This document shows, in pieces, positions 7,680-29,241 of a stretch of DNA of 34,242 nt (position 1 is the stretch's first letter; each line of letters begins with the position of its first letter). The translations under genes and the position numbers were made by a program. This stretch comes from Armatimonadota bacterium (GTDB taxonomy: Bacteria > Armatimonadota > Zipacnadia > Zipacnadales > VGFC01), in assembly GCA_016869045.1 (NCBI GenBank), contig VGFC01000026.1:1-34242 (forward strand), read 5' to 3'. The notes below the pieces were generated by a model. That model did not search any database. It saw only the letters and a program-made list of their open reading frames with translations, and had not been told where the DNA came from.

Positions 7680-10600
7680 TCACCGCCGCTGCAGGCCCAG
7701 CGTCCCGACCGCCTGCGACCGTCCGCCATCGGGTGTGAGGCTCGTCACGGTCACCAAGTACAGCCCTGCCGGCGCCGCCGTACCGGCCTCAGACCGGCCG
7801 TCCCACGCGACGCTGTGCACGCCCGCCGCCATCGGCTGCGACACCATGAGCGTCCGCACCGGCCGACCCGCGATGTTCGCTATCTGCACCGTCACCGCCG
7901 CCTCGGCAGACAGCGTGAACGTGACCGAGGCTCCCGCCGCCGTCGGCTGTGCCAGCACGGACGTTACCAGCGCCCTCGTCCCCGCTATCGCCTGCCCAGT
8001 CGGCGTGACCCCGCCAACGACCGGGTCGAAGTCCACGTTGGCCGGGCACTCGATTCGGTTGCGGATCTGCGCCGCGACCGTCGTGCCCCAGTCGTTGTTC
8101 TCCGCCCGGATGGTGAAGCCCGACTTCGCTTCGCAGGCGTTCACCGCCGCGCGCCGGGAGGCGCCGAACCAGTTCTCCCCCCGCTTCCAGGGGATCGAGG
8201 CCCCGTACTCGCCCAGATGGCCGCGCGCCGAGTCGTAGAAGATGATGTGCGCGTCGTTGTCGCGGAACTTGCAGCCCCGGACCCCGACCAAGCAGTCCGG
8301 GTCGGCCTCCGGACGGTCGTAGTTGAGCGCAAGCCCGCAGCCCTGGCCGCGGATGTCGTTGTTGCCCACGTAGGCATGGCAACCCTCGACGATGACGCCG
8401 TACATGCCGTTCCGCGTGACGCCGTTGACGTTGTAGCCGACGCGGTTACCCGTGATAATGTTGCCCTGGTCGAGGTCCGCCAACGCGCCGGTGAACGTGA
8501 GATTGTAGAAGTACACTGCCGCCTGTTTGCCGAACACGCGGCAGTCGCGCACCTGCGCGCGGGCCGGGCCAGCCTGGTACAGGACGCCGCACCGGTTGCT
8601 GAGATTCGGCGCTGTGCCATTGGGGATGAAGTCGATCCCATCCACATCGAGGCCGACGATGCAGCTCGAGAGCAGCACATTGTTGGTGCCCGTGCCGGTC
8701 ACCTCAACGCCGCGCTGGGAGTTACCCGAGATCGTGCCCTTCTTGATCTGCGTGTCGGCGGCGCCGTCGCGCACGGTGACGCCGTTCTCCTTGTTGGGCA
8801 GCGCCGCCTGACCGGCGCCATCCAGCCCGATGACGTTATCCACCACCTGATTCCCGATCGCCTGTGCGCCGTAGATGTCCACGCCGTCGCACTGGTTGCC
8901 AGAGACGAAGTTGCCCTTGTAGCCCCCGCCGCCCACGTAGTTGTGATCCGCCTCGGCGATCTCGATGCCATTGCCGACGTTAGGCAGCGCGACCGTGAGC
9001 GCCTGATCCAGCCCGATCGCGTTGCTCGCGACGTAGTTACCCGAGGTGCCCGCCCCGGAGATCAGCACCCCCGAGGCCGCGTTGTTCCCGATCCAGTTGC
9101 GGTAGGTCGGGTCCGGCCCTCCGACCACGTTGTTCTTGGCGCCAGCGGTGATCTCGACCCCCGCCCCGACGTTGCGCCAGGGCGTCAGGTTCGCGACGGA
9201 CGTGCCGCCGGGCGGGGTCCCGATGTAGTTGAGCACGACCTTGTTCCGGTTCGTGCCCGAGCCCCCAATGCGCACCCCCGCCCCCTGGTTACACGAGATG
9301 AGGTTGCCGGCGACCGTGGTGCCGATCGTGTTCTCCGTCGCGCGGCCGAGGATGTCGACTCCCGGGCCCTCGTTGCCGTCGGGGACGCACTGGCCGCTCA
9401 CTTCGCCCGCCCCGATCGTACAGCGGCTGACCTCGTTCGCCGCGGTTCCCCCATCCCGAATCACGATCCCCGGGCCACGATTCCCCGCGATGTGGCTGTC
9501 CGCCGTACTCCCAATCCAGTTGCCATGCGCGCCTGAGGTGATGAACACACCGCCCCGCGCGTTGCCTGGTGCTTCGTTCTCCGGCCGGCTGCGGCCGATC
9601 CAGTTCCCTGCCACCGTGTTCCCTTGCGCTCCGTGGGAGAGGATGACGCCCGGACCCGCGTTGGCGCAGATCGCATTGGGCGAAGTGCCCCCGATCGTGT
9701 TGCCATAGGCCTGTTGGTCGATGAGCACGCCGCCGAGAGCGTTCGCGCTGGCAGTCCATCGATCGGAGCCTGACCGGGGAGTCACTCCGATCCAGCTCCC
9801 ATCTACGGTGATGCCATGCGCAGTCGCGCCGGCGATTTTCACGCCGTAGCCGCCGTTCCCACCGATGATGCTGGGCCTGTCGGTCGAGGCCCCGATCCGG
9901 ATGGCGCGCGCCTCACCGGCGCTGCCGTCGATCTCCACCCCGTGCTGCTTGTTGCTCTCGATGCGGTTGCCAAGCGCGGTGACGTCGTGTACGCCGCCCC
10001 CGACGAACAGGCCGACCTCTTCGGTCGCGTGACGGATCTGGTTGTTGGACAGGCTCACGTCGTACGCGCCGTACAGCGCCACGTTCGTGCCATTCCGGTA
10101 GATGCGGTTACCGATGGTCCCGCCGATCTTCACGTCATGGCTGCCGGTGCCGACGTAGACCCCCGTCTCCCCAGCGCCCATGAAGGCTGTGCTCTCCCAG
10201 CCAATCGTGTTCCCCTCGACCTGCACGGACTGGCACAGGCCCAACTGGATGCCGATGCACTCCCGCCCCGGCACGATGAGGTTCCCGTAGAGCGCCGACG
10301 GAACGCCCGTCGGGGCATCCCTGGCGGTTGCGGCTGTCGTGACGATGCGCGGGCCGAGCCTGAGGTTGGAGCACCCGTCGGCCGTGACCCCGAAGCCTCG
10401 TCCGCCGGCCGGCGCAGACCGGTCGGGGAGCGCCCCAATCGTGTTGCCCTCGATGACGACCGGCCCCGTGCAGTCGGTCAGGTGAATCGGCACCGTGTAG
10501 CCCACCAGCACGTTGCCCTCGTCTGCACCGCTCTTGTGCGCGCCGCCGATGGTCAGTCGCCCGGCCCCGATGGCCTCGATGCCATGATGGTAGTACCCCG

Positions 10601-11894
10601 CCCCGATGGGCTGGTTGTCCTTGTCGAAGCCCATCCAGTTCCCGCGGATGACCGTGTTCCGCGCGTTCTCCCGGACGCGGATGCCCTGCCGTCCGCAGCG
10701 ATTCCGCTGCGTCGCGTCCGCACTGCCGATCTTGGTGCCTGAGACCCCGCGACCGACCACGATGCCCCACGCCTGCTCCTCCGGCGCCACCGCATTGCCC
10801 CACTGGTTCATGCCGATACAGGTGCCGACGACGGTAGTGTCATCGCAGTTCGGCTCGATCCTGATGCCCGCCTCCGTGAAGTTCACGATGACGTTGGGCC
10901 CATACCCGGGGCTTACCGAGCCGCCGATCACATTGCCGTGCGCCCCGTCCTCGATGACCAGCCCGTACCTGCACTTCGCGCCCGCGTTGTTCTGTCCGAG
11001 GTAGTTCTGGCGGATGGTGTTCTCGTGCCCGTCATCCCCACTGTTGCCGCCGACGTTCATGCACATCTCGGTGGCGTAGATGCAGTTGAAACGGTTCTCG
11101 ATGTCGCCGATGCGGTTGTGCTGGCCGCCGACCCACAGGCCGGACACGGGGGGGTAGGCGAGGGGGGTCCACAGATCGGGCTTGAGCCCCACCACGTTCG
11201 TGCAGAAGACGTTCTCCTCCCCGTTGATGCCAACCGGCCCCCCTGTGCCGGCCTTGCCGAAGTGGTTGCGGTACCACACCCGGTCGCCGCCGACCACGTT
11301 GCGATTCCCGCTCACGTTCAGGCCCGGGGCGAAGGCCGGCGCCCAACTCGTCTCGGCGTCCAGGTCGAGCGCGAAGTGGCAGGCCTGAACCTTGTTCTCG
11401 TCGCCGCTCACCTCGACCCGCAACAGGCACAGCCCCCTCACGAGGCACTGGTTGCCGCTGACCGTCAGTTGATCGGCGAGCTTCACGCGCGGGTTGTAGC
11501 TCCCGAAGTCACCGACGAACGAGTCGCCGTTGCCCGACAGCCCCAGCCCCCACCCCCAGTGGTCGAACACAATCCCGCCCGGCCCGTCCAGGGCCGGGTC
11601 GAACGTGATCTGATTGGCCGCCGCATCCTGTGCCGCGTAGGTGAAGGCCTCGTCGATGTAGATGAACCCATCGGCCTTCGGGTAGAACCCCCAGCGCCCG
11701 AGGGAGTTGACGACGATGGTTCCGCCCACCGGCGGCGGCTCGGGCTGGTCGGCGAGCACCGGCGCGATCCACCGCGGGAGGCCGCCCAGCGTGGCGCTGT
11801 CCAGCGGCATGCGGCTGGGGGTCTGTGGGAGAGAGGGAGACGCGAGAAGCAGCGCGACAACCAGGAGATACGCCGACCGGACCCGCGCAAGCAT
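7680..11894 (-). CDS. Secreted 1404-aa right-handed parallel beta-helix protein with FlgD-like C-terminal domain
   Basis: Sec signal at residues 1-24 (YLLVVALLLASPSLPQ). Nearly the whole mature protein consists of short beta-helix coils of the NosD/pectate-lyase type, with dozens of G-N-x-I/V-x-G repeats (GNRNVVGG, GNTIGAL, GNWIGRS, NAIGLDQALTVALPNVGNGI). Residues about 1320-1404 form an Ig-like FlgD/T9SS-type module (VQIANIAGRPVRTL, GVHSVAWDGRSEAG, PAGLYLVTV). Such tails often anchor or sort secreted proteins, but no secretion machinery is visible here. No catalytic residues can be picked out, so a polysaccharide-binding, lyase or surface role is open. The ATG has AAGGGGGG seven bases upstream. 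The 142 bp between this gene's stop and the next gene hold only that gene's promoter region. Confidence 0.88.
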   Translation of the reverse strand: MLARVRSAYLLVVALLLASPSLPQTPSRMPLDSATLGGLPRWIAPVLADQPEPPPVGGTIVVNSLGRWGFYPKADGFIYIDEAFTYAAQDAAANQITFDPALDGPGGIVFDHWGWGLGLSGNGDSFVGDFGSYNPRVKLADQLTVSGNQCLVRGLCLLRVEVSGDENKVQACHFALDLDAETSWAPAFAPGLNVSGNRNVVGGDRVWYRNHFGKAGTGGPVGINGEENVFCTNVVGLKPDLWTPLAYPPVSGLWVGGQHNRIGDIENRFNCIYATEMCMNVGGNSGDDGHENTIRQNYLGQNNAGAKCRYGLVIEDGAHGNVIGGSVSPGYGPNVIVNFTEAGIRIEPNCDDTTVVGTCIGMNQWGNAVAPEEQAWGIVVGRGVSGTKIGSADATQRNRCGRQGIRVRENARNTVIRGNWMGFDKDNQPIGAGYYHHGIEAIGAGRLTIGGAHKSGADEGNVLVGYTVPIHLTDCTGPVVIEGNTIGALPDRSAPAGGRGFGVTADGCSNLRLGPRIVTTAATARDAPTGVPSALYGNLIVPGRECIGIQLGLCQSVQVEGNTIGWESTAFMGAGETGVYVGTGSHDVKIGGTIGNRIYRNGTNVALYGAYDVSLSNNQIRHATEEVGLFVGGGVHDVTALGNRIESNKQHGVEIDGSAGEARAIRIGASTDRPSIIGGNGGYGVKIAGATAHGITVDGSWIGVTPRSGSDRWTASANALGGVLIDQQAYGNTIGGTSPNAICANAGPGVILSHGAQGNTVAGNWIGRSRPENEAPGNARGGVFITSGAHGNWIGSTADSHIAGNRGPGIVIRDGGTAANEVSRCTIGAGEVSGQCVPDGNEGPGVDILGRATENTIGTTVAGNLISCNQGAGVRIGGSGTNRNKVVLNYIGTPPGGTSVANLTPWRNVGAGVEITAGAKNNVVGGPDPTYRNWIGNNAASGVLISGAGTSGNYVASNAIGLDQALTVALPNVGNGIEIAEADHNYVGGGGYKGNFVSGNQCDGVDIYGAQAIGNQVVDNVIGLDGAGQAALPNKENGVTVRDGAADTQIKKGTISGNSQRGVEVTGTGTNNVLLSSCIVGLDVDGIDFIPNGTAPNLSNRCGVLYQAGPARAQVRDCRVFGKQAAVYFYNLTFTGALADLDQGNIITGNRVGYNVNGVTRNGMYGVIVEGCHAYVGNNDIRGQGCGLALNYDRPEADPDCLVGVRGCKFRDNDAHIIFYDSARGHLGEYGASIPWKRGENWFGASRRAAVNACEAKSGFTIRAENNDWGTTVAAQIRNRIECPANVDFDPVVGGVTPTGQAIAGTRALVTSVLAQPTAAGASVTFTLSAEAAVTVQIANIAGRPVRTLMVSQPMAAGVHSVAWDGRSEAGTAAPAGLYLVTVTSLTPDGGRSQAVGTLGLQRR

Positions 11895-11992: not shown

Positions 11993-13600
11993 TCATTGGA
12001 GGCGAATCACGGCGCCGGCGCGCTCCGGCGAGGTCTCTGCGCCACGGGCGGCGACGTGGCCGTTGACGATCACTAGGTCCATGCCGTCCGGGTACGAGTG
12101 GGGGCGGCCATAGTCGCCCCGCTCGGCGATGCGCTCCGGGTCGAAGACCACAATGTCGGCGCAGTAGCCCTCCGCCAGGGCGCCGCGGTCCCGCAGCCGC
12201 AGCCGGGAGGCCGGCAGGCTCGTGCACTTGCGGATGGCGGCCTCCAGGGGGAGCAGGCCCTCGTCGCGGACGTACCTCCCCAGGAACCGCGCGTAGGTGC
12301 CGTAGCAGCGAGGGTGGGGCGCGCCCTCGGAGAGCGGCCCGTAGGGCGCGTAGGCCAGGCCGTCGGTCGCGATGCAGCCGAGGGGGTGCTTCAGGAACTC
12401 GCGTACGTCGTCCTCGCTCATCGCCCACAGCACGCAGCTCACCTCCGCCTGCTCCTCGATCAGCAGGTCGAGCGTGGCGTCGAGCGGGTCCTGGCCGCGG
12501 CGCTCGGCGATCTCATCAAGACGCACGCCCACACACCACGCGTTCGCCTCCGTCCGTACGGAGGTGATCATCGTGTTGTGGAAGTCCAGCGAGAATCCCC
12601 CGCCCGAGTCCATGCCCGCCGCCCAGGCGTTCAGAGACTCGCGCAGCCGCGCGCGCGCCCCGGGCTGTCTCAGCCGCTCCAGCATCGGCCCGATGCCTCC
12701 ATCGACCACCCAGTTCGGCAGCGAGCCGTACAGGTGCCGGCTCCCCGCCGTGTAGGGGTACACGTCATACGTGGCGTCGATGCCCCTCGCCACGGCCTTC
12801 TCCAGGTGCTCCAGAACCCGCTGCGCGCCCCCCCAGTGCGCCTCGCCGATGCACTTGAGGTGGGCGATCTGCAGGCGGCACCCGGTCTCCTCGGCGATGC
12901 CAAGCATCTCGTCGAGGGACTCCATCAGCCGCGGCCCCTCGTTCCGCAGGTGGACTGTGACCAGCCCCTCCTGGATGGCGCAGGTGGCGGCGAGGCGCAG
13001 CGGCTCATCGCTGTCCGAGAACGAGCCCAGCGGATAGCTCAACCCCAGCGACACACCTACCGCGCCGCCTGCGAGACCCTCGTTGAGCGTCCCGCACATC
13101 GCCACCAGCTCGTCCGGCGTCGCCGGTCGCGCGTCGAAGCCCATCACCCACGCCCGCAGGGCGCTCTGCCCTACGAGCGTCGCCACGTTGTACGCCGGCC
13201 GTGCGCGCTCCAGCACTTCCAGATACCCCCAGGTCCGCTCCCACTCCCAGGCCACGGGCGCGTCGATGAACGTGCACACGCTCCGCAGTGCCTCACGGTC
13301 CTCCGGGTGCACCGGGAACGGCGTCATGCCGCACTGCCCGTTCAGCTCGGTGGTGACGCCCTGGTGCAGCTTGCTCTCACCCGAGGGGTTCACGAGCAGC
13401 GTCAGCTCGGAGTGCGCGTGCAGATCGATGAACCCGGGGCACACCACGCGCCCCGCGCAGTCCATTCTCTCCCGCGCCGCCGCCTCCGTCAGGTCCCCGA
13501 TGCGCTCGATCCGCCCGTCCAGAACCCCGACGTCCGCCCGGCGGCTCGGCGTGCCGCTGCCATCCACGACTTGCCCGTTCAGCAGGAGAAGATCATACAT
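11993..13600 (-). CDS. N-acyl-D-amino-acid deacylase (D-aminoacylase)-type amidohydrolase
   Basis: 535 aa, the usual length for this family, with no signal, so cytosolic. It should hydrolyse N-acyl-D-amino acids or related amides. The amidohydrolase frame is complete: N-terminal LLLNGQVVDGSG beta-sandwich, H61-x-H63 in DLHAHSEL, Cys90 in GQCGMTPFP (the bridging metal ligand of D-aminoacylases), His217 in VTVHLRNEG, His247 in QIAHLKCIG, Asp413 in IATDGLAY, then HPRCYGTYARFLGRYVRDE and a GYCADIVVFDPE closing strand. D-amino-acid substrates fit wall or protein turnover, but relatives include dihydroorotase-like enzymes, so the exact substrate is uncertain. It starts 13 bases after the stop of the radical SAM gene with only a weak ribosome site, which suggests coupled expression. 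Confidence 0.92.
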   Translation of the reverse strand: MYDLLLLNGQVVDGSGTPSRRADVGVLDGRIERIGDLTEAAARERMDCAGRVVCPGFIDLHAHSELTLLVNPSGESKLHQGVTTELNGQCGMTPFPVHPEDREALRSVCTFIDAPVAWEWERTWGYLEVLERARPAYNVATLVGQSALRAWVMGFDARPATPDELVAMCGTLNEGLAGGAVGVSLGLSYPLGSFSDSDEPLRLAATCAIQEGLVTVHLRNEGPRLMESLDEMLGIAEETGCRLQIAHLKCIGEAHWGGAQRVLEHLEKAVARGIDATYDVYPYTAGSRHLYGSLPNWVVDGGIGPMLERLRQPGARARLRESLNAWAAGMDSGGGFSLDFHNTMITSVRTEANAWCVGVRLDEIAERRGQDPLDATLDLLIEEQAEVSCVLWAMSEDDVREFLKHPLGCIATDGLAYAPYGPLSEGAPHPRCYGTYARFLGRYVRDEGLLPLEAAIRKCTSLPASRLRLRDRGALAEGYCADIVVFDPERIAERGDYGRPHSYPDGMDLVIVNGHVAARGAETSPERAGAVIRLQ

Positions 13601-13613
13601 GATGGCAGGCGGC

Positions 13614-14804
13614 CTACTCCCAGATCCCCGGGATCTGGACTCCGCAGTGGGTGCAGAGCCCTCGGTGCGGGTCGAAGCTCACCGCGGAGACGTTCGTGCC
13701 GACGCGCCGGATCAGCATCTCACTGCACTTCGGGCAGAGCGTTGACTCACCGAAGTCGCCCGGCACGTTCCCGACGTACGCGAACAGCAGCCCCGCCTCA
13801 TACGCCGCCTCGCGGAAGGACTTCAGCTGCACCGGGTCGGTCGAGGCGGTCTGGTACTGGCGGTGCTTGTACTCGGGGAAGAACCGTATGAAGTGGACGG
13901 GCGTCGCCGGGCCGGCGTTCTCGGCGATCCACTTGCACATGTCCTTCACGACGCTGAGCGTGTTGTTGTAGCCGGGCACCATGAGGCACGTGATCTCCAG
14001 CCACACGGGCGTCTCGCGCGCGGCCTTGATGGCGTCCAGCACGGGCTGCAGCGACCCCTCGCAGAGCGTCTTATACGTCGTCTCCGCGTAGGCCTTCAGG
14101 TCCACGTTCAACGCCGTCAGCACTGAGGCGTAGTCCTTCATCGGCCCCGGCGTCAGGTATGCGCCCGTGTGCGTGATCGGGTAGAGCCCCCGCTCGCGAG
14201 CCGCGAGGGCGACATCGATCGCATACTCGATGGCCGCGGCCGGGTCGGTGTACGTGCACCCCAGCAGCTTTCCGCCCTGCGCCGCCACGTGGTCCACCAG
14301 CGCTTTCGGTTCGATCGGCTGCGTCGGCACCTTCTCTGCGGGGAACTGGGAGATCCGCCACTCGCTGCAGTAGCTGCAGTGCAGGTTGCACGTCGGCGCC
14401 CCGTAGAAGACCGCCTGCGCGCCGGGCAACACGTGGAAGAAGTGGTCCGTTTCGATCTGCTCGACCTTCAGCTTCGCGACCTTCCCGTAGCCCAGCGACT
14501 CCAGCTTGCCCTCGGCGGTGTGCGCGTACGCCTGACACTTCCCCCGCGTCCCCTTCTTGATCTTGCACCCGTGCGGACACAGCCCACAGGGAATCTCCCC
14601 CGTCGCCGCTGTCGGCAGCGCATACCGCGCACCCGGCGGCGGAGGCGGCGGGGCTGGCGGCTCGGCAGGCTTCGTCTCGCCCTCCGCCGGCTTCGGCGCC
14701 TCCTGCCCCAGCAGCGGGCTTGCCAGACCGGCCAAGGCCACGCCGGTCTTCGCAACTCGATCGATGAACTGCCGTCTCCCGAACTGCCTTCCTGACATCC
14801 TCAT
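13614..14804 (-). CDS. AmmeMemoRadiSam-type radical SAM protein carrying a twin-arginine signal
   Basis: 396 aa. The core matches the radical SAM member of the AmmeMemoRadiSam system (PflA-activase-like). It has an N-terminal four-Cys motif (C73-GL-C76-PHG-C80, then GKC90), the cluster motif C139-NLH-C143-SY-C146, and a C-terminal zinc-ribbon-like pair (C357-PK-C360 and C384-TH-C387) ending in GVQIPGIWE. The family's role is unproven; it is thought to act with AMMECR1 and Memo proteins, and neither is in this window. The unusual part is the N-terminus: GRRQFIDRVAKTG plus ALAGLA is a typical Tat signal, followed by a proline-rich linker (about 36-58). Radical SAM chemistry is normally cytosolic, so either the protein is exported with its cluster or the signal acts only as an anchor. 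It is co-oriented with the amidohydrolase downstream. Confidence 0.88.
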   Translation of the reverse strand: MRMSGRQFGRRQFIDRVAKTGVALAGLASPLLGQEAPKPAEGETKPAEPPAPPPPPPGARYALPTAATGEIPCGLCPHGCKIKKGTRGKCQAYAHTAEGKLESLGYGKVAKLKVEQIETDHFFHVLPGAQAVFYGAPTCNLHCSYCSEWRISQFPAEKVPTQPIEPKALVDHVAAQGGKLLGCTYTDPAAAIEYAIDVALAARERGLYPITHTGAYLTPGPMKDYASVLTALNVDLKAYAETTYKTLCEGSLQPVLDAIKAARETPVWLEITCLMVPGYNNTLSVVKDMCKWIAENAGPATPVHFIRFFPEYKHRQYQTASTDPVQLKSFREAAYEAGLLFAYVGNVPGDFGESTLCPKCSEMLIRRVGTNVSAVSFDPHRGLCTHCGVQIPGIWE

Positions 14805-14912: not shown

Positions 14913-16919
14913 TCAGCCGTTCCCCCGGCCCTCCACCAACCTCCTCGCTGCCTCCGCCACCACGCTCGAGTTCGGGAGCGCGCAGCTCTCCAGCGGCTGC
15001 GAGTAGGGGAGAGGGACGTCGCGCGCCGTGACGCGCAGGGGTGCGGCCCTCAGCGCACCGAATGCGTTGTCCGTAACCGTCGCGATGATCTCCGCCGCCG
15101 CGCCGGCGGTCTGACAGTCCTCCGTGAGCACCAGCACCCGTCCCGTCTTGCGCACTGACGTCAGCAACGTGTCCGTGTCCATCGGCACGAGCGTGCGCAG
15201 GTCGATCACCTCGGCCTGGATACCCTCGGCCTGCAGGCGCTTCGCCGCATGCAGGGCGATATGGACCGCCCTCGCATACGTGACGATGGTGAGGTCCCGG
15301 CCCTCGCGCTTCACCGCCGCCTTGCCCAGCGGGATGATGTACTCACCCCCCGGCACCGGCCCGACGTCCTGCAGTAGGCCCTTGTGCTCCAGGAAGATCA
15401 CCGGGTCCGCGTCGCGAATCGCTGCGGTCAGCAGGCCCTTCGCTTCGGCGGGTGTCGAGGGGTAGACGACCTTCAGACCCGGCGTGTGCATGAACCACGC
15501 TTCCAGGCTCTGCGAGTGTTGCGCGCCTCGCGCGCGCCCTGCGCAACCGGATGTCGCGCGGATCACCAACGGCACGCTGACCTGCCCGCCGAACATGTAG
15601 CGCATCTTCGCGGCCTGGTTGGCGATCTGGTCCATCGCCACGGTTACGAAGTCCGAGAACATGATCTCGCAGATCGGCCGCAGCCCCTGCATCGCCGCGC
15701 CCACGCCGCACCCGATGATCGCCGCCTCCGAGATCGGCGTATCGCGAATCCGCTCCGGCCCGAACCGCTCCAGCATCCCCGCACTCACCTGGAACGCGCC
15801 GCCGCGCTTCCCCACATCCTCCCCGATCAGCACCACCCGCTCGTCGCGCTCCATCTCCTCCCCGATGGCCTGCCCGAGCGCCTCCACGAAGGTCTTCTCC
15901 GGCGAGCCGTCGGGCACCGGGCCCGAGTCCGCCAGCGGCGCCTGCGGCGTATACAGGTCCGCGCACGTCTCGTCCGTCTCCGGGCAGGGCTCCTCGTCCT
16001 TGGCCCTTCGATGGGCGTCCCGCACCTCGGTCCGGATGGCCTTGCGCAGCGCCTTCAGCTCCTCCTCGGTCGCCGCGCCCCCCGCCGTCAGCAGTTGCCC
16101 CGAGCGCTCGACGGGATCGTTGTTCTTCTCCCACCACTGCCTCTCGTCGCGCGGCCGGTACCGGTCCGGGTCCATCGCGTAATGGCCGGTGATCCGATAG
16201 GTCTTGCACTCCAGCAGCGTCGGCCCTTCGCCCGTCCGCGCGCGCTCGACCGCCTGTGCCGTCGCCTCCCTCACCGCCAGCACGTCGTTCCCATCAACCA
16301 CGACGCCGGGCATCCCGTAGCCCGCCGCGCGATCCGCGACGTTCTCGATCGCCATCGACTCGTTCGCAGCCATCGAGACGGCGTACTGGTTGTTCTCGCA
16401 CAGGAACACCACCGGCAGCTTCCAGATCGCCGCCAGGTTCAGGGCCTCATGGAACGAGCCCTGGTTCGCCGCGCCATCCCCGAAGAAGCTGAGGCACACC
16501 TGCCCCGTGCCCTTCAGCATCGCCGCCAGCGCGATCCCGTTGGCGATCGGCATCCCCGCTCCGACGATGCCGTTGGCCCCGCAGATCCCCAGCGAGAAGT
16601 CCGCGATGTGCATCGACCCGCCGCGCCCCCGGCAGTACCCGCTCGCCTTGCCGTAAAGCTCCGCCATCATCCGGCGGATGTCCGCGCCCTTCGCGATGCA
16701 GTGCCCATGCCCGCGGTGCGTGCTGGTGATCAGGTCGTCCGGGCGCAGCGCCGCCATCGTCCCGGCGGCAATCGCCTCCTGCCCGATGCACAGGTGCGTG
16801 GCGTCGGCGAGGTCCCCCCGCCTTGATGCGTGCAGCAGCTCCGTCTCGAATTCGCGGATCGTCACGATCTGCCGGTGCAGCTCACGCAGCAGATCCACGT
16901 CGATGTGAGTCACGGCCAT
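14913..16919 (-). CDS. Fused E1alpha-E1beta 2-oxoacid dehydrogenase (TPP-dependent)
   Basis: 668 aa from the ATG at 16919, which has AAAGGACC upstream; the frame stays open to 17429, but that leader has no homology signal. Residues about 1-325 are E1alpha: the TPP/Mg motif starts G147-DGAANQG and ends E175-NN, preceded by STHRGHGHCIAKG and GRGGSMHI, and followed by TYRITGHYAMDPDRYR. Residues about 340-668 are E1beta: VVLIGEDVGKRGGAF, DTPISEAAIIGCGVGAAM, and GAQHSQSLEAWFMHTPGLKVVYPS. It should decarboxylate a 2-oxoacid (pyruvate, acetoin or a branched-chain keto acid) and pass the acyl group to a lipoyl E2. No E2 or E3 gene lies nearby, so the complex must be completed elsewhere. Fused E1 chains of this type are known in several phyla. 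The gene is divergent from the broken PadR gene. Confidence 0.93.
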   Translation of the reverse strand: MAVTHIDVDLLRELHRQIVTIREFETELLHASRRGDLADATHLCIGQEAIAAGTMAALRPDDLITSTHRGHGHCIAKGADIRRMMAELYGKASGYCRGRGGSMHIADFSLGICGANGIVGAGMPIANGIALAAMLKGTGQVCLSFFGDGAANQGSFHEALNLAAIWKLPVVFLCENNQYAVSMAANESMAIENVADRAAGYGMPGVVVDGNDVLAVREATAQAVERARTGEGPTLLECKTYRITGHYAMDPDRYRPRDERQWWEKNNDPVERSGQLLTAGGAATEEELKALRKAIRTEVRDAHRRAKDEEPCPETDETCADLYTPQAPLADSGPVPDGSPEKTFVEALGQAIGEEMERDERVVLIGEDVGKRGGAFQVSAGMLERFGPERIRDTPISEAAIIGCGVGAAMQGLRPICEIMFSDFVTVAMDQIANQAAKMRYMFGGQVSVPLVIRATSGCAGRARGAQHSQSLEAWFMHTPGLKVVYPSTPAEAKGLLTAAIRDADPVIFLEHKGLLQDVGPVPGGEYIIPLGKAAVKREGRDLTIVTYARAVHIALHAAKRLQAEGIQAEVIDLRTLVPMDTDTLLTSVRKTGRVLVLTEDCQTAGAAAEIIATVTDNAFGALRAAPLRVTARDVPLPYSQPLESCALPNSSVVAEAARRLVEGRGNG

Positions 16920-17045
16920 CGGGTCAGGTCCTTTCGACAGGCTCGACTCGGGGCATGTCGCCTCGCGTGTGACGGCACAGAAGAGGTACCATTCGTCGAT
17001 CCAGCGCCGCCTGCCTCCTGCGGTTGCGGCGCCCAACCACATCGC

Positions 17046-17074
17046 TTGACCATACATCGGTTCTCGTCTACGAT
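17046..17074 (+). promoter_or_regulatory. Promoter for a leaderless PadR transcript
   Basis: TTGACC (17046-17051), a 17-base spacer and TACGAT (17069-17074) make a reasonable sigma70-type promoter. The expected start of transcription, about seven bases past the -10, falls on the ATG at 17082, and no ribosome-binding sequence precedes that ATG. A direct repeat CGATA-GT-CGATA (17071-17082) overlaps the -10 and the start codon and may be the operator, as PadR genes are usually self-repressed. Confidence 0.45.
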
Positions 17075-17081
17075 AGTCGAT

Positions 17082-17392
17082 ATGAGGGCGCCCTGCAACG
17101 CACTGAACCGCAGACTGCCTCTTGCCCTCCTGAAAGCGCACACGCTGCGCGACGCCGAGGGGGACCAGTCCACGATCCGGGCATCCCACAGGAACCGCGC
17201 TGCCAGGGGTACGCCATGGGCCCTGGAAGGCTCCACCCGTGGTTGCAGTGGTTGGGGCGCGGCGGGCTCCGCGAGCAGGGCAAGGGAGCGGCCGGGCCTC
17301 GCGCGCGCCGTGAGTACATCCTGACCGCGGAGGGTCGCGAGGCCTTCGACGGCCGGCGGGACGAGGTCTGGGAACTGCACGACGAGAGGTGA
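17082..17392 (+). pseudogene. PadR-family transcriptional regulator, frameshifted
   Basis: Two overlapping frames together spell one PadR winged-helix protein of about 103 aa. The first, from ATG 17082, reads LPLALLKAHTLRDAEG. The second, from about 17159, reads GPVHDPGIPQEPRCQGYAMGPG, RLHPWLQWLGRGGL and REYILTAEGREAF, ending WELHDER at TGA 17392. These are the PadR helix 1, recognition-helix and wing regions in order. The join falls in a run of five Gs (17159-17163). One additional G would make a single continuous frame of normal PadR length. It is therefore either a recently broken gene, a sequencing or assembly error, or, less likely, a -1 frameshifting site. It lies divergently from the E1 gene and 85 bp before the polyferredoxin gene. 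PadR proteins sense small ligands and repress nearby genes. Confidence 0.7.
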
Positions 17393-17477
17393 TCCCTAAG
17401 AGGGTGTGTGAGAGGGCCACCGCCAACACAACGACCCACCCCCTTCGCGTAGAGCCTTAGGAGCGAGGAGCCGGGGA

Positions 17478-25303: not shown

Positions 25304-25347
25304 CCTGCCCGACGTCCGCCAGTTCCTGTTCCAGGAGGAGGAGCACC

Positions 25348-28300
25348 ATGCCACTGAAGCGTGTCATTGCCGTTGGCGTCCTCATTTCGGGTGCAGCGCT
25401 CGTGCTGCACGCGTTGGCGTCCGCGCAGGACGACGATGTCGCGACACTTGCCCAGCGCATCCTAAAGGCGACGGGCGTCAAGGGCGGTCTCATCGTCCAT
25501 GTCGGCTGCGGGGATGGACGGCTAACGGCTGCCCTCCACGTCAACGACAGCTACATGGTCCAAGGGCTGGAGAAAACCGACGCGGATGTGCAGAAGGCGC
25601 GCGCCGCGATACAGGGGCAGGGGCTCTACGGGCCGGTCGCGGTGGATCGTTGGGACGGCGCCCATCTCCCGTACGCCGACAACCTGGTGAACCTGCTGGT
25701 CTGCACGGACGGCAGCCTGCCCGACATCGCCGAAGTAACGCGCGCGCTCGCGCCGACCGGCATGGCCTTCGTGCGGCGCGACGGGCAGTGGCGCAAGACG
25801 ATCAAGCCCCGACCGAGCGACATCGACGAGTGGACCCACTACCTGCACGATTCCACCGGCAACCCGGTCGCCAGGGACGAAGTGGTCGGCCCGCCACGCG
25901 GCTTGCAGTGGGTCGCCGGCCCGCGCTGGGCCCGTCACCACGACCACATGGCCAGCATGACCTCCCTCGTCACAGCCAACGGGCGCTTGTTCTACGTCCT
26001 CGATGAGGGCCCCACCGCCTCGATCCAGCTCCCCAGCAAGTGGCGGCTCATCGCTCGCGACGCGTTCAGCGGGACGCCCCTGTGGAAGCGCGAGATCTCC
26101 ACCTGGAACACGCAGCAGTGGCCGCTGAAGAGCGGCCCTGCGCATCTCCTCCGTCGCCTGGTCGCGGTGGATGACACGGTGTTCGTGACCCTCTCCCTGG
26201 ATGGCCCGGTCTTGGCGCTTGATGCCGCGACCGGCGAGACCATGCGGACCTTCGCAGGCAGCGAGGGCTCAGGGGAGATCGTCGTCACCGGCAACACGCT
26301 CTTGGCCATCAAGGCCGCCGATGCATCGAAGCTCCTGCAGTGGCGTCGGCGCGATACGTACGTCTGGGACAACTCCAACCGCGCCAACCGCGAGTGGGCC
26401 TGGAACGGCGAGCCCGGCGGCATTACCGCCTATGACCTCGAATCGGGAAGACAGCTCTGGCGGGCTGAGCAGCCCGTCGCCCCGTGCTCACCGGCAGCGG
26501 ATGCGACCCGCGTCGTCTTCTACGACGGCGCGAAGGCCATCGCCCTGAGCCTAACGGACGGCAAGCCGCTCTGGGAGAGTGAGCCGATCAAGGCCACGGT
26601 GCCTGTGGTCACGAGCACGGGCGTCCGCGTGTTGCTCTACCAGGATGTGGTCTTGCTCGCCGGCAACAACGGCACGATGACCGCCCTCTCGGCGACGGAC
26701 GGCCACAAGCTCTGGGAAGCTCCTCAGCTCCCGTCCGGCCACCAATCCCTCAGGGACCTATTCGTCGTCGGTGGGATCGTCTGGACGGGCGCCATCGCGG
26801 CGGGCAACGACCCGGGCAACTTCGTTGGCTATGACCCTCTCACCGGGGAAGTGAAGAGCGAGTTCCCCTGCGACGCGCAGACCTACTGGTTCCATCACCG
26901 CTGCTACCCGAGCAAGGCGACGGATCGCTACCTGCTGACCTCCCGTACGGGCGTCGAGTTCATCGACCCCGCAGCGAAGCACTGGGAGCCTCACCACTGG
27001 GTGCGCGGCGGCTGCATCTACGGCGTGCTGCCGGCCAACGGCATGCTGTACGCACCGATGCAGTCGTGTGGCTGCTACCTCGAGTCAAAGCTGAACGGCT
27101 TCAGCGCCCTGACTCCCGTTCCCGCCGCGCAACCCGACGCAGCGCTATTGACCGACGAAGCCCGCCTGGAGCGCGGCCCGGCCTACGGTTACCAGTCCGA
27201 GGAGGCAACCGCGCCGGGCGACTGGCCGACCTATCGGCACGACGAGGGCCGTAGCGGTGCAACCTCGGCTGCCGCCTCATTGACCCCAGACGCTGCCTGG
27301 AAAGCGCAGATCGGCGGCCGCCTGACGCCGCCCGTCGTCGCGAACGGACAGGTCCTCGTCGCCTCCATTGACGCGCACACACTACACGCTCTCGACGCGA
27401 GAACCGGCACAGCCCTCTGGACCTACACCGCTGGCGGCCGGATCGACTCCCCTCCGACCCTGTATCGCGGCCTCGTGCTCTTCGGCTCGGCGGATGGGCA
27501 CGTGTACGCGCTGCGCGCCTCTGACGGCGCCCTGTCGTGGCGCTACCGGGCCGCGCCGATGGACCGGCGGGTCGTGGCCTTCGATCAGCTCGAGTCCGCC
27601 TGGCCCGTCCATGGCAGCGTCCTGATCCACAACGGTACGCTCTACTGCACGGCGGGCCGCTCGATCTTCCTGGACGGCGGCATTCGGCTGCTCAGGCTCG
27701 ATCCCCTCACCGGAAGCAAGCTCTCCGAGACCGTCATGGACGAGCGCGATCCCGACACCGGGGAGAACATGCAGACCCAGGTGAAAGGCCTGCACATGCC
27801 CGTTGCCCTCTCGGACGTCCTCTCCTCGGACGGGCAGTACATCTACATGCGCTCACAGAAGATCGACCCGGAGGGCAAGCGGCTGGAGATACCCGTCGAG
27901 ACCGTCGATCAGCAGCCCGCCGAGGGCTCGCACCTGTTCTGTCAGATCGGTTTCCTCGATGACTCCTGGTACCACCGCTCCTTCTGGACCTTCGGCCGGC
28001 GGGTGGCCGGCGGCTACGGCGGCTGGTTCCAGGCCGAGCGGATGGTGCCGTCGGGGCGCATCCTCGTGTTCGACGACCAGCGGGTCTACGGCTACGGGCG
28101 CAAGCCCGAGTACTTCGTCAACGCCTCGGTGCTCGAGTACCAGCTCTTCGCCGCCGAGAAGTACGTCACTCCCGAGGCCATCCAGCGCGTGCAGAAGGCC
28201 AATGGCGAGATGAACGCGCGGTTGGACAAGAACGCCGCCAACGTCTCGGACTGGAAGCTGCGGCGCTACTTCCCCATCGAGGACCTGACGGCGGCCCGCT

Positions 28301-29241
28301 ACCCGTGGATCGTGAGTCAGCCCTCGCTGCAGGTGCGTGCGATGACCCTCGCCGGGGACACGCTCTATGTGGCCGGCCATCCGGACTTCATCGACGAGCG
28401 CCAGGCCTTCCGCCTGCCCGACGATCCCGACGTCCAGGCCCGCCTGATCAAGCAGGCCGAAGCCCTCGACGGCAAGTACGGCGGCCGATTCTGGGTCGTC
28501 TCCGCCGCCGAGGGCAAGCCCCTCGCGCGCTACTCGCTCCCCAGCCCGCCGGTCTTCGACGGCCTCATCGCGGCAGACGGGCGGCTGTTCATGGCCACCC
28601 TGGATGGCGCCCTGCTCTGCCTCGGCCCCGGTTCAACGACCGGCCTGCAGCCCCTGGATGAGGCCGAGCCGCTGCAGACCATCTCCGACGAACCCGAGGA
28701 GCCCAACTACCTCAAGCCGCCCGAGGTGGACAAGAGCGCCGACTTTGGGACCGTGTCCGGCTGCCGCGTCGTCGAGGCGCCCCTCGGTTACCGCCTCCAG
28801 GCGAAGGGTGAGAAGACGGTCTGCCTCGCTCTCAACCAGCTGCAGGCGCCCCTGACCGGCAAGATCGTCCTCAGCACCAGAATCCGCGTCAAGGATGGCA
28901 CGGGCTTCCTCCAGAACGGGTTCGTCGCCTTCGGTGACGGTCCGGCGGACGCCCAGCTTGTGAAGTGCGGGATCCGCTTCCGGCCCCAGACCGCGCTCAT
29001 CATTGAGGACGAACTCGCGACCGGCGCCAAGACGACCAGCGCCAAGGTGGACGCGCCTATGGGGAAGGTCACGGACTTGACCGTGACCATCGACCTCGAC
29101 CAGCAGACCGTGTCGTTCACGACCTGCGGCGTGACCCTCGAGGCCAAGCTCGCTCGCCCCCTCGCCTCGATCACGCACGTTGGCTTCGCCGCCGACAGCG
29201 CCATCGTGGAGGTGAGTCCCCTGCAGGTCGGGAAGCCATAG
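25348..29241 (+). CDS. Exported methyltransferase-like / PQQ-type beta-propeller protein
   Basis: About 1297 aa from ATG 25348, which follows AGGAGGAGGAG; an earlier in-frame ATG at 25027 would overlap the HEAT/TPR gene. A signal-like N-terminus (RVIAVGVLISGAALVLHALASAQ) precedes a short class I methyltransferase-like fold: IVHVGCGDGRLTAAL (49-63) resembles SAM motif I, QGLEKT (72-77) the acidic strand-2 end, and YADNLVNLLVCTDG the post-motif strand. The linker DIDEWTHYLHDSTGNPVARD is followed by PQQ/BamB-type propeller blades (LDAATGETMRTFAGSEGSG, LDARTGTALWTYTAGG, GHVYALRASDGALSWRY) to about 1100. The last 130 residues look like a concanavalin/LamG-like sheet (GKIVLSTRIRVKDGTGFLQ). If exported, the methyltransferase fold would lack SAM and may be a relic or a binding domain. 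Related combinations are common in Planctomycetota-like genomes, function unknown. Confidence 0.82.
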   Translation: MPLKRVIAVGVLISGAALVLHALASAQDDDVATLAQRILKATGVKGGLIVHVGCGDGRLTAALHVNDSYMVQGLEKTDADVQKARAAIQGQGLYGPVAVDRWDGAHLPYADNLVNLLVCTDGSLPDIAEVTRALAPTGMAFVRRDGQWRKTIKPRPSDIDEWTHYLHDSTGNPVARDEVVGPPRGLQWVAGPRWARHHDHMASMTSLVTANGRLFYVLDEGPTASIQLPSKWRLIARDAFSGTPLWKREISTWNTQQWPLKSGPAHLLRRLVAVDDTVFVTLSLDGPVLALDAATGETMRTFAGSEGSGEIVVTGNTLLAIKAADASKLLQWRRRDTYVWDNSNRANREWAWNGEPGGITAYDLESGRQLWRAEQPVAPCSPAADATRVVFYDGAKAIALSLTDGKPLWESEPIKATVPVVTSTGVRVLLYQDVVLLAGNNGTMTALSATDGHKLWEAPQLPSGHQSLRDLFVVGGIVWTGAIAAGNDPGNFVGYDPLTGEVKSEFPCDAQTYWFHHRCYPSKATDRYLLTSRTGVEFIDPAAKHWEPHHWVRGGCIYGVLPANGMLYAPMQSCGCYLESKLNGFSALTPVPAAQPDAALLTDEARLERGPAYGYQSEEATAPGDWPTYRHDEGRSGATSAAASLTPDAAWKAQIGGRLTPPVVANGQVLVASIDAHTLHALDARTGTALWTYTAGGRIDSPPTLYRGLVLFGSADGHVYALRASDGALSWRYRAAPMDRRVVAFDQLESAWPVHGSVLIHNGTLYCTAGRSIFLDGGIRLLRLDPLTGSKLSETVMDERDPDTGENMQTQVKGLHMPVALSDVLSSDGQYIYMRSQKIDPEGKRLEIPVETVDQQPAEGSHLFCQIGFLDDSWYHRSFWTFGRRVAGGYGGWFQAERMVPSGRILVFDDQRVYGYGRKPEYFVNASVLEYQLFAAEKYVTPEAIQRVQKANGEMNARLDKNAANVSDWKLRRYFPIEDLTAARYPWIVSQPSLQVRAMTLAGDTLYVAGHPDFIDERQAFRLPDDPDVQARLIKQAEALDGKYGGRFWVVSAAEGKPLARYSLPSPPVFDGLIAADGRLFMATLDGALLCLGPGSTTGLQPLDEAEPLQTISDEPEEPNYLKPPEVDKSADFGTVSGCRVVEAPLGYRLQAKGEKTVCLALNQLQAPLTGKIVLSTRIRVKDGTGFLQNGFVAFGDGPADAQLVKCGIRFRPQTALIIEDELATGAKTTSAKVDAPMGKVTDLTVTIDLDQQTVSFTTCGVTLEAKLARPLASITHVGFAADSAIVEVSPLQVGKP

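Follow-up and report, generated by a model that had tools for sequence, protein, structure and literature searches.

The window, the whole 34,242-nt stretch of DNA analysed here, carries on its minus strand a gene, P0001, which we consider probably to encode a Tat-exported AmmeMemoRadiSam enzyme, a diverged paralogue that lacks partners and belongs to a large branch of exported family members; the enzyme would act at the outer face of the membrane. Radical SAM (rSAM) enzymes are regarded as cytosolic because SAM and low-potential electrons are found there. The family of P0001, its signal and the conservation of that signal, its intact catalytic motifs and the co-export of the proteins encoded beside its relatives come directly out of the computations, which give the following features for the gene and its downstream neighbour:

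13614..14804, minus strand: Tat-signal AmmeMemoRadiSam-type radical SAM gene P0001, 396 aa (TIGR04337, AlphaFold2 core)
14703..14804, minus strand: twin-arginine signal region, residues 1-34, RR at 10-11 (sequence rules)
14628..14702, minus strand: Pro/Ala/Glu-rich linker, residues 35-59 (sequence; pLDDT below 50)
14535..14588, minus strand: N-terminal CxxCPxxC-x9-C cluster, residues 73-90 (Cys kept in 111/111 relatives)
14367..14390, minus strand: radical SAM CX3CX2C, residues 139-146 (kept in 71/71 exported and 40/40 cytosolic sequences)
13644..13736, minus strand: C-terminal CxxC...CxxC, residues 357-387 (conserved in nearly all relatives), probably a metal-binding ribbon
11993..13600, minus strand: amidohydrolase (Amidohydro_3), 13 bp past the rSAM stop (linkage not conserved)

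The reading frame runs from an ATG at 14804 to a stop at 13614, and an in-frame stop lies a few codons 5' of the ATG, so that a longer N-terminus is impossible. Residues 67-396 match TIGR04337 with 269.1 bits (cut-off 220), which places the protein among the AmmeMemoRadiSam rSAM proteins, and PF04055 is matched with 43.6 bits against 29.5; the CX3CX2C heads a partial TIM-barrel domain, the hallmark of the radical SAM superfamily. The earlier note, made from the sequence alone, had described an intact core of this type with CX3CX2C at 139-146, which proved exact. AlphaFold2 folds the core with pLDDT above 90, residues 1-59 being of low confidence except for a helix at 10-19. The closest solved fold is that of the pyruvate formate-lyase activating enzyme (PFL-AE; 3c8f, E 1e-11, TM 0.80 over the target), which was likewise the best match in a PDB profile search with the family; a phmmer search of the PDB with the P0001 sequence alone gave no match. 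P0001 resembles PFL-AE, whose target is a polypeptide, in fold and in CX3CX2C, but differs from it by an identity of 12%, by the extra N- and C-terminal cysteine clusters and by the export signal; no glycyl radical enzyme was seen as a partner.

The Tat-like signal of P0001 is GRRQFIDRVAKTGVALAGLASPLLGQ. The N-terminus (MRMSGRQFGRRQFIDRVAKTGVALAGLASPLLGQ) shows RR at residues 10-11, F13, a charge-free hydrophobic stretch (TGVALAGLASPLL, residues 20-32) and then the Pro-rich linker, in agreement with the twin-arginine signal, hydrophobic stretch and proline-rich linker read earlier. Under the simple rules by which signals were called throughout this work, in place of SignalP/TatP or other trained predictors, 2 of the 122 ORFs of the window satisfy the strict Tat rule, namely P0001 and a spurious ORF that lies antisense to a real gene; when residues 2-60 of P0001 were shuffled 20,000 times, 0.5% of the products satisfied it. 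Six of the 41 other rSAM genes of the genome pass a loose Tat rule, all of them with charged or internal stretches, and thus none is convincing by inspection. TatC is encoded in the same genome and, together with the RR and a moderately hydrophobic stretch, corresponds to what is expected from sequence of a Tat substrate. A chance N-terminal extension was ruled out by these shuffles and by the conservation of the signal: in the survey of orthologues that the earlier note had called for, of 53 sequences drawn from the same class and phylum, 42 have an export signal and the other 11 belong to the separate cytosolic branches, so that the objection of relatives with a later start or no N-terminus fails. 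We regard it as highly probable, on these sequence features, that P0001 is an exported protein.

The family as a whole was examined with 125 homologues, taken from relatives and from 80 named contigs that span many phyla, and classed by their N-terminus; 5 of them form a related PflX-like outgroup. The tree contains a large branch of 80 sequences, of which 62 are Tat-like, 9 Sec/TM-like and 9 signal-less, two of those counted as Tat (L097 and L136) resembling Sec/TM more by eye. An export signal is therefore a property of 71 of the 80, vs none of the 40 remaining, cytosolic AmmeMemo sequences. The branch spans Bacteroidota, Planctomycetota, Omnitrophota, Chloroflexota, Thermodesulfobacteriota, Lentisphaerota, KSB1, Poribacteria and others, and Tat forms also occur in Altiarchaeota and Aenigmatarchaeota bins, many of the family sequences being derived from metagenome bins. 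Since the signal is conserved across the family, beyond P0001, the trait belongs to the family and not to a single gene. The large branch is, as far as signal rules and gene order tell, a widespread and hitherto unrecognised group of signal-bearing rSAM enzymes encoded beside exported proteins. P0001 itself falls in an all-Tat branch of 25 sequences (SH-aLRT 99), on the longest end branch of the tree (1.36); its best match besides itself has about 40-43% identity, and it has no close orthologue.

Two sister sequences on the tree (L103:3108-4472 and L135:4657-5898) are Tat AmmeMemo rSAMs in which a CxxCH, where haem c might be attached, lies in the linker that joins signal and core; they are the only such members found, the loci from the phylum search having yielded none. 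These sequences bear on the orientation of the group. The RR and hydrophobic stretch might merely form an N-terminal membrane anchor with the catalytic domain facing the cytoplasm, where the supply of SAM would be unproblematic, and plain N-terminal TM segments without a Tat motif are indeed present in L096, L116, L124 and L138. We judge this arrangement improbable, however, as the RR motif is conserved across phyla, the partners bear lipoprotein, Sec or Tat signals and CxxCH is a motif for c-type haem, which is matured outside.

The gene neighbourhoods of the exported rSAMs support an outward location. A recurring set was found near them, made up of a Memo-AMMECR1 fusion, often a DUF362 protein, the rSAM and a Spermine_synth membrane protein of about 720-750 aa, and this operon order is seen in many phyla, archaea included. 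The signal of the Memo-AMMECR1 protein tracks that of the rSAM (31/5/3/18, Fisher p=1e-7), 3 of the 5 exceptions on one side of this table being Memo ORFs truncated by a contig end; the Memo partner of a signalled rSAM has a Sec, lipoprotein or RR-type signal and that of an unsignalled rSAM mostly none. Moreover, 19 of the 21 DUF362 partners bear a Tat signal. The Spermine_synth membrane protein was present at 24 of 41 exported named loci vs 2 of 39 others (p 2e-7), a comparison in which flank lengths differ and related loci are not independent. Possible carriers for the outward passage of electrons are encoded at some loci: a CcdA/DsbD protein, a DsbD-FMN_bind-Fer4 protein or a nitroreductase whose membrane part resembles cytochrome b. 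A DsbD_2-family gene lies directly 5' of the exported rSAM at L116:7787-9712, L124:1735-3432, L125:9155-9817 and L138:5576-7249 (all plus strand); the L124 protein additionally has FMN_bind and Fer4_5 domains and is a candidate trans-membrane electron route. At four other loci a second, different rSAM with a Tat-like or hydrophobic N-terminus, which we take to be PflX-like, is convergent beside the Tat rSAM (L094:5273-6322, L095:2936-4096, L141:8891-10000 and L144:11210-12331, all minus strand).

The membrane partner is a 13-14-TM protein with a spermidine-synthase-like (Spermine_synth) soluble domain. With loops averaged over 20 sequences, the positive-inside rule is obeyed in both bundles when the soluble domain is placed outside. 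AlphaFold2 folds the protein confidently, and the soluble domain matches polyamine aminopropyltransferases. The protein is similar to the fused MFS/spermidine synthases (NF037959, PF01564) in this fold and in score (45.6 and 59 vs 40 for NF037959 in the two cases tested), but differs from them by its domain predicted outside and by loss of the Asp of GGGDGG, absent from 20 of 20 aligned members. The first Asp of DSxDP is kept in few of the 20 sequences, and the ELDP and D-x-R motifs of the nucleoside site mostly remain. In the catalytic and binding residues of aminopropyltransferases, the protein thus falls short of a spermidine synthase.

In the genome of P0001, Memo, AMMECR1, DUF362 and Spermine_synth membrane genes are all present outside the window, and a scan of the 34,242 nt of the window found none of them. 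The absence of Memo and AMMECR1 partners from the window, which had been noticed earlier, is thus confirmed, the two being fused at the end of contig C393 in a protein with a lipoprotein signal. Immediately behind the fusion gene, within the final 122 bases of C393, another gene opens with MTSRRRFLQIVAGAGAALGGC, a Tat lipoprotein signal, and contig C87 opens inside an rSAM gene that is followed by the Spermine_synth membrane protein. From the operon order, the two contigs sharing no sequence overlap, we infer that C393 and C87 adjoin. Contig C486 carries a second Tat rSAM and then a Tat DUF362, and contig C33 an unsignalled AmmeMemo rSAM copy. An rSAM gene adjoining Memo/AMMECR1 is found in many exported relatives and probably at C393/C87, and not at P0001; a context shared with the sister locus L055 was looked for and rejected, as it turned up no family partners. 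A second, distant Memo-family gene lies on C393 (L048:3785-4645, minus strand), divergent from the Memo-AMMECR1 lipoprotein gene.

The gene that follows P0001 begins at 13600 and is, as first read, of D-aminoacylase type and 13 bp downstream. The short gap and common strand might indicate that the two form a functional pair, which the earlier note had proposed to examine by co-occurrence. The survey showed no such linkage: orthologues of the amidohydrolase, with up to 56% identity, occur in many relatives on contigs other than those of AmmeMemo rSAM genes, and the pairing is therefore local to this genome. As the amidohydrolase also lacks an evident export signal, we find the pair scarcely credible, and the amidohydrolase was rejected as the partner of P0001. 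Three further genes of the window were noted. Downstream of the amidohydrolase, 7680-11894 (minus strand) encodes a 1404-aa right-handed beta-helix protein with a C-terminal FlgD-Ig domain. Upstream of P0001 and on its strand, 14913-17429 encodes a fused pyruvate/2-oxoacid dehydrogenase E1 alpha + beta, the long N-terminal extension of this ORF being probably non-coding. At 25345-29241 (plus strand), a Sec-like signal (MPLKRVIAVGVLISGAALVLHALASA) precedes a class I methyltransferase domain, whose motif (GLIVHVGCGDGRL) is intact, and PQQ/BamB propellers; several relatives have both the signal and the methyltransferase motif, and the product seems to be a second SAM-type protein leaving the cytoplasm.

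P0001 looks most like an exported orphan paralogue, fast-evolving, diverged and partnerless, which probably has another substrate or relies on partners whose genes lie elsewhere. It departs from the family at the near-invariant sites T119, H121, S147 and E148, and D187 stands for the Glu of the xEP motif. A degenerate SAM site owing to D187 was considered and rejected, Asp being present in 20 of 40 cytosolic members. These unusual residues, together with the long end branch and the lack of family partners in the window, might suggest that P0001 is decaying or neofunctionalised and that its function has moved away from that of the family, a reading compatible with our main explanation. We hold such drift to be rather unlikely, though worth keeping in mind, given that the open frame is intact, that all cysteines and the signal are kept and that D187 is a common state among cytosolic members.

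For the exported group, the following mechanism is proposed. P0001 would fold and gain its [4Fe-4S] cluster in the cytoplasm and cross the membrane in folded form by Tat. Whether its signal remains in place as a tether or is cleaved off to release it, the protein would stay at the outer face of the cytoplasmic membrane or close to it, and might there abstract hydrogen, much as the PFL activase does, from an envelope polypeptide or a membrane lipid, which we infer to be the substrate. Work of 2019 by Burroughs and colleagues reportedly suggests links of these systems to base and isoprenoid modification, and may already note signal peptides; the isoprenoid link would agree with a membrane location. 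In complete systems, the exported Memo-AMMECR1 fusion (often a lipoprotein) and the exported DUF362 would share the substrate of the rSAM, the extracytoplasmic spermidine-synthase-like domain of the 13-14-TM protein would handle SAM or the adenosyl product, and electrons might reach the rSAM via membrane carriers of the CcdA/DsbD or DsbD-FMN-Fer4 type and, in two cases, perhaps via c-type haem. The external or membrane-tethered radical SAM function that had been thought possible gains support from the family-wide signal; as to catalysis outside the cytoplasm, we lean slightly in its favour, and the details of SAM and electron supply are put forward tentatively.

We know of no SAM pool established outside the cytoplasm, which counts against our main explanation. 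It also speaks for an exported protein that does not turn over, leaving the cell interior with a bound cluster and perhaps one SAM and serving a redox, metal-binding or scaffold role; Tat is suited to prefolded cofactor proteins, and both extra cysteine clusters are conserved, with two of the exported and cytosolic sequences compared as the only exceptions for the C-terminal CxxC pairs. Under such a role, the SAM site should be under weaker selection, whereas the exported branch has kept the rSAM cysteines and SAM-site motifs just as strictly as the cytosolic one, and in complete systems a neighbouring protein has a SAM-family domain that is predicted to lie outside. A non-turnover role therefore appears unlikely to us, and we retain a Tat-exported enzyme as the preferred explanation.

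Known systems offer partial parallels. Hydrogenase small subunits and other proteins are carried by Tat as prefolded Fe-S proteins and are not SAM-dependent; P0001 is similar as a presumptive prefolded Fe-S protein but differs in belonging to a SAM-dependent family. The exported sets have the same three components as the AmmeMemoRadiSam system (TIGR04337, TIGR04336 for Memo and TIGR04335 for AMMECR1), with Memo and AMMECR1 often fused, and the one exported fusion tested passes both TIGR04336 and TIGR04335. They differ from it by their Tat/Sec signals and by the added DUF362 and spermidine-synthase-like membrane protein, and P0001 differs by standing alone. To our knowledge, the function of the AmmeMemoRadiSam system is not known; human homologues of Memo and AMMECR1 are linked to disease. 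In the open-licence part of PubMed Central, we found no paper that describes a radical SAM enzyme as exported, nothing relevant on AMMECR1 with flavinylation or DUF362 with spermidine synthase, and incidental mentions of 'AmmeMemoRadiSam'. A passage of the eLife paper PMC7159879 cites Burroughs et al. 2019 for 'Memo-Ammecr1 systems'.

To conclude, the conserved, multi-gene and co-exported set described here points to where the AmmeMemoRadiSam system acts and with which partners. It makes the cell envelope the place in which to look for the substrate, and offers a direct test of extracytoplasmic SAM chemistry. If the exported group works outside the cytoplasm, a chemistry so far assigned to the cell interior alone would occur in the envelope. 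We suggest, as a conjecture still short of even weight, that many bacterial phyla and some archaea have a complete rSAM modification system on the outer face of the cytoplasmic membrane, whose dedicated membrane protein, with its extracytoplasmic spermidine-synthase-like domain, delivers SAM or removes the adenosyl product; if this is true, both radical SAM chemistry and a SAM pool would exist outside the cytoplasm.
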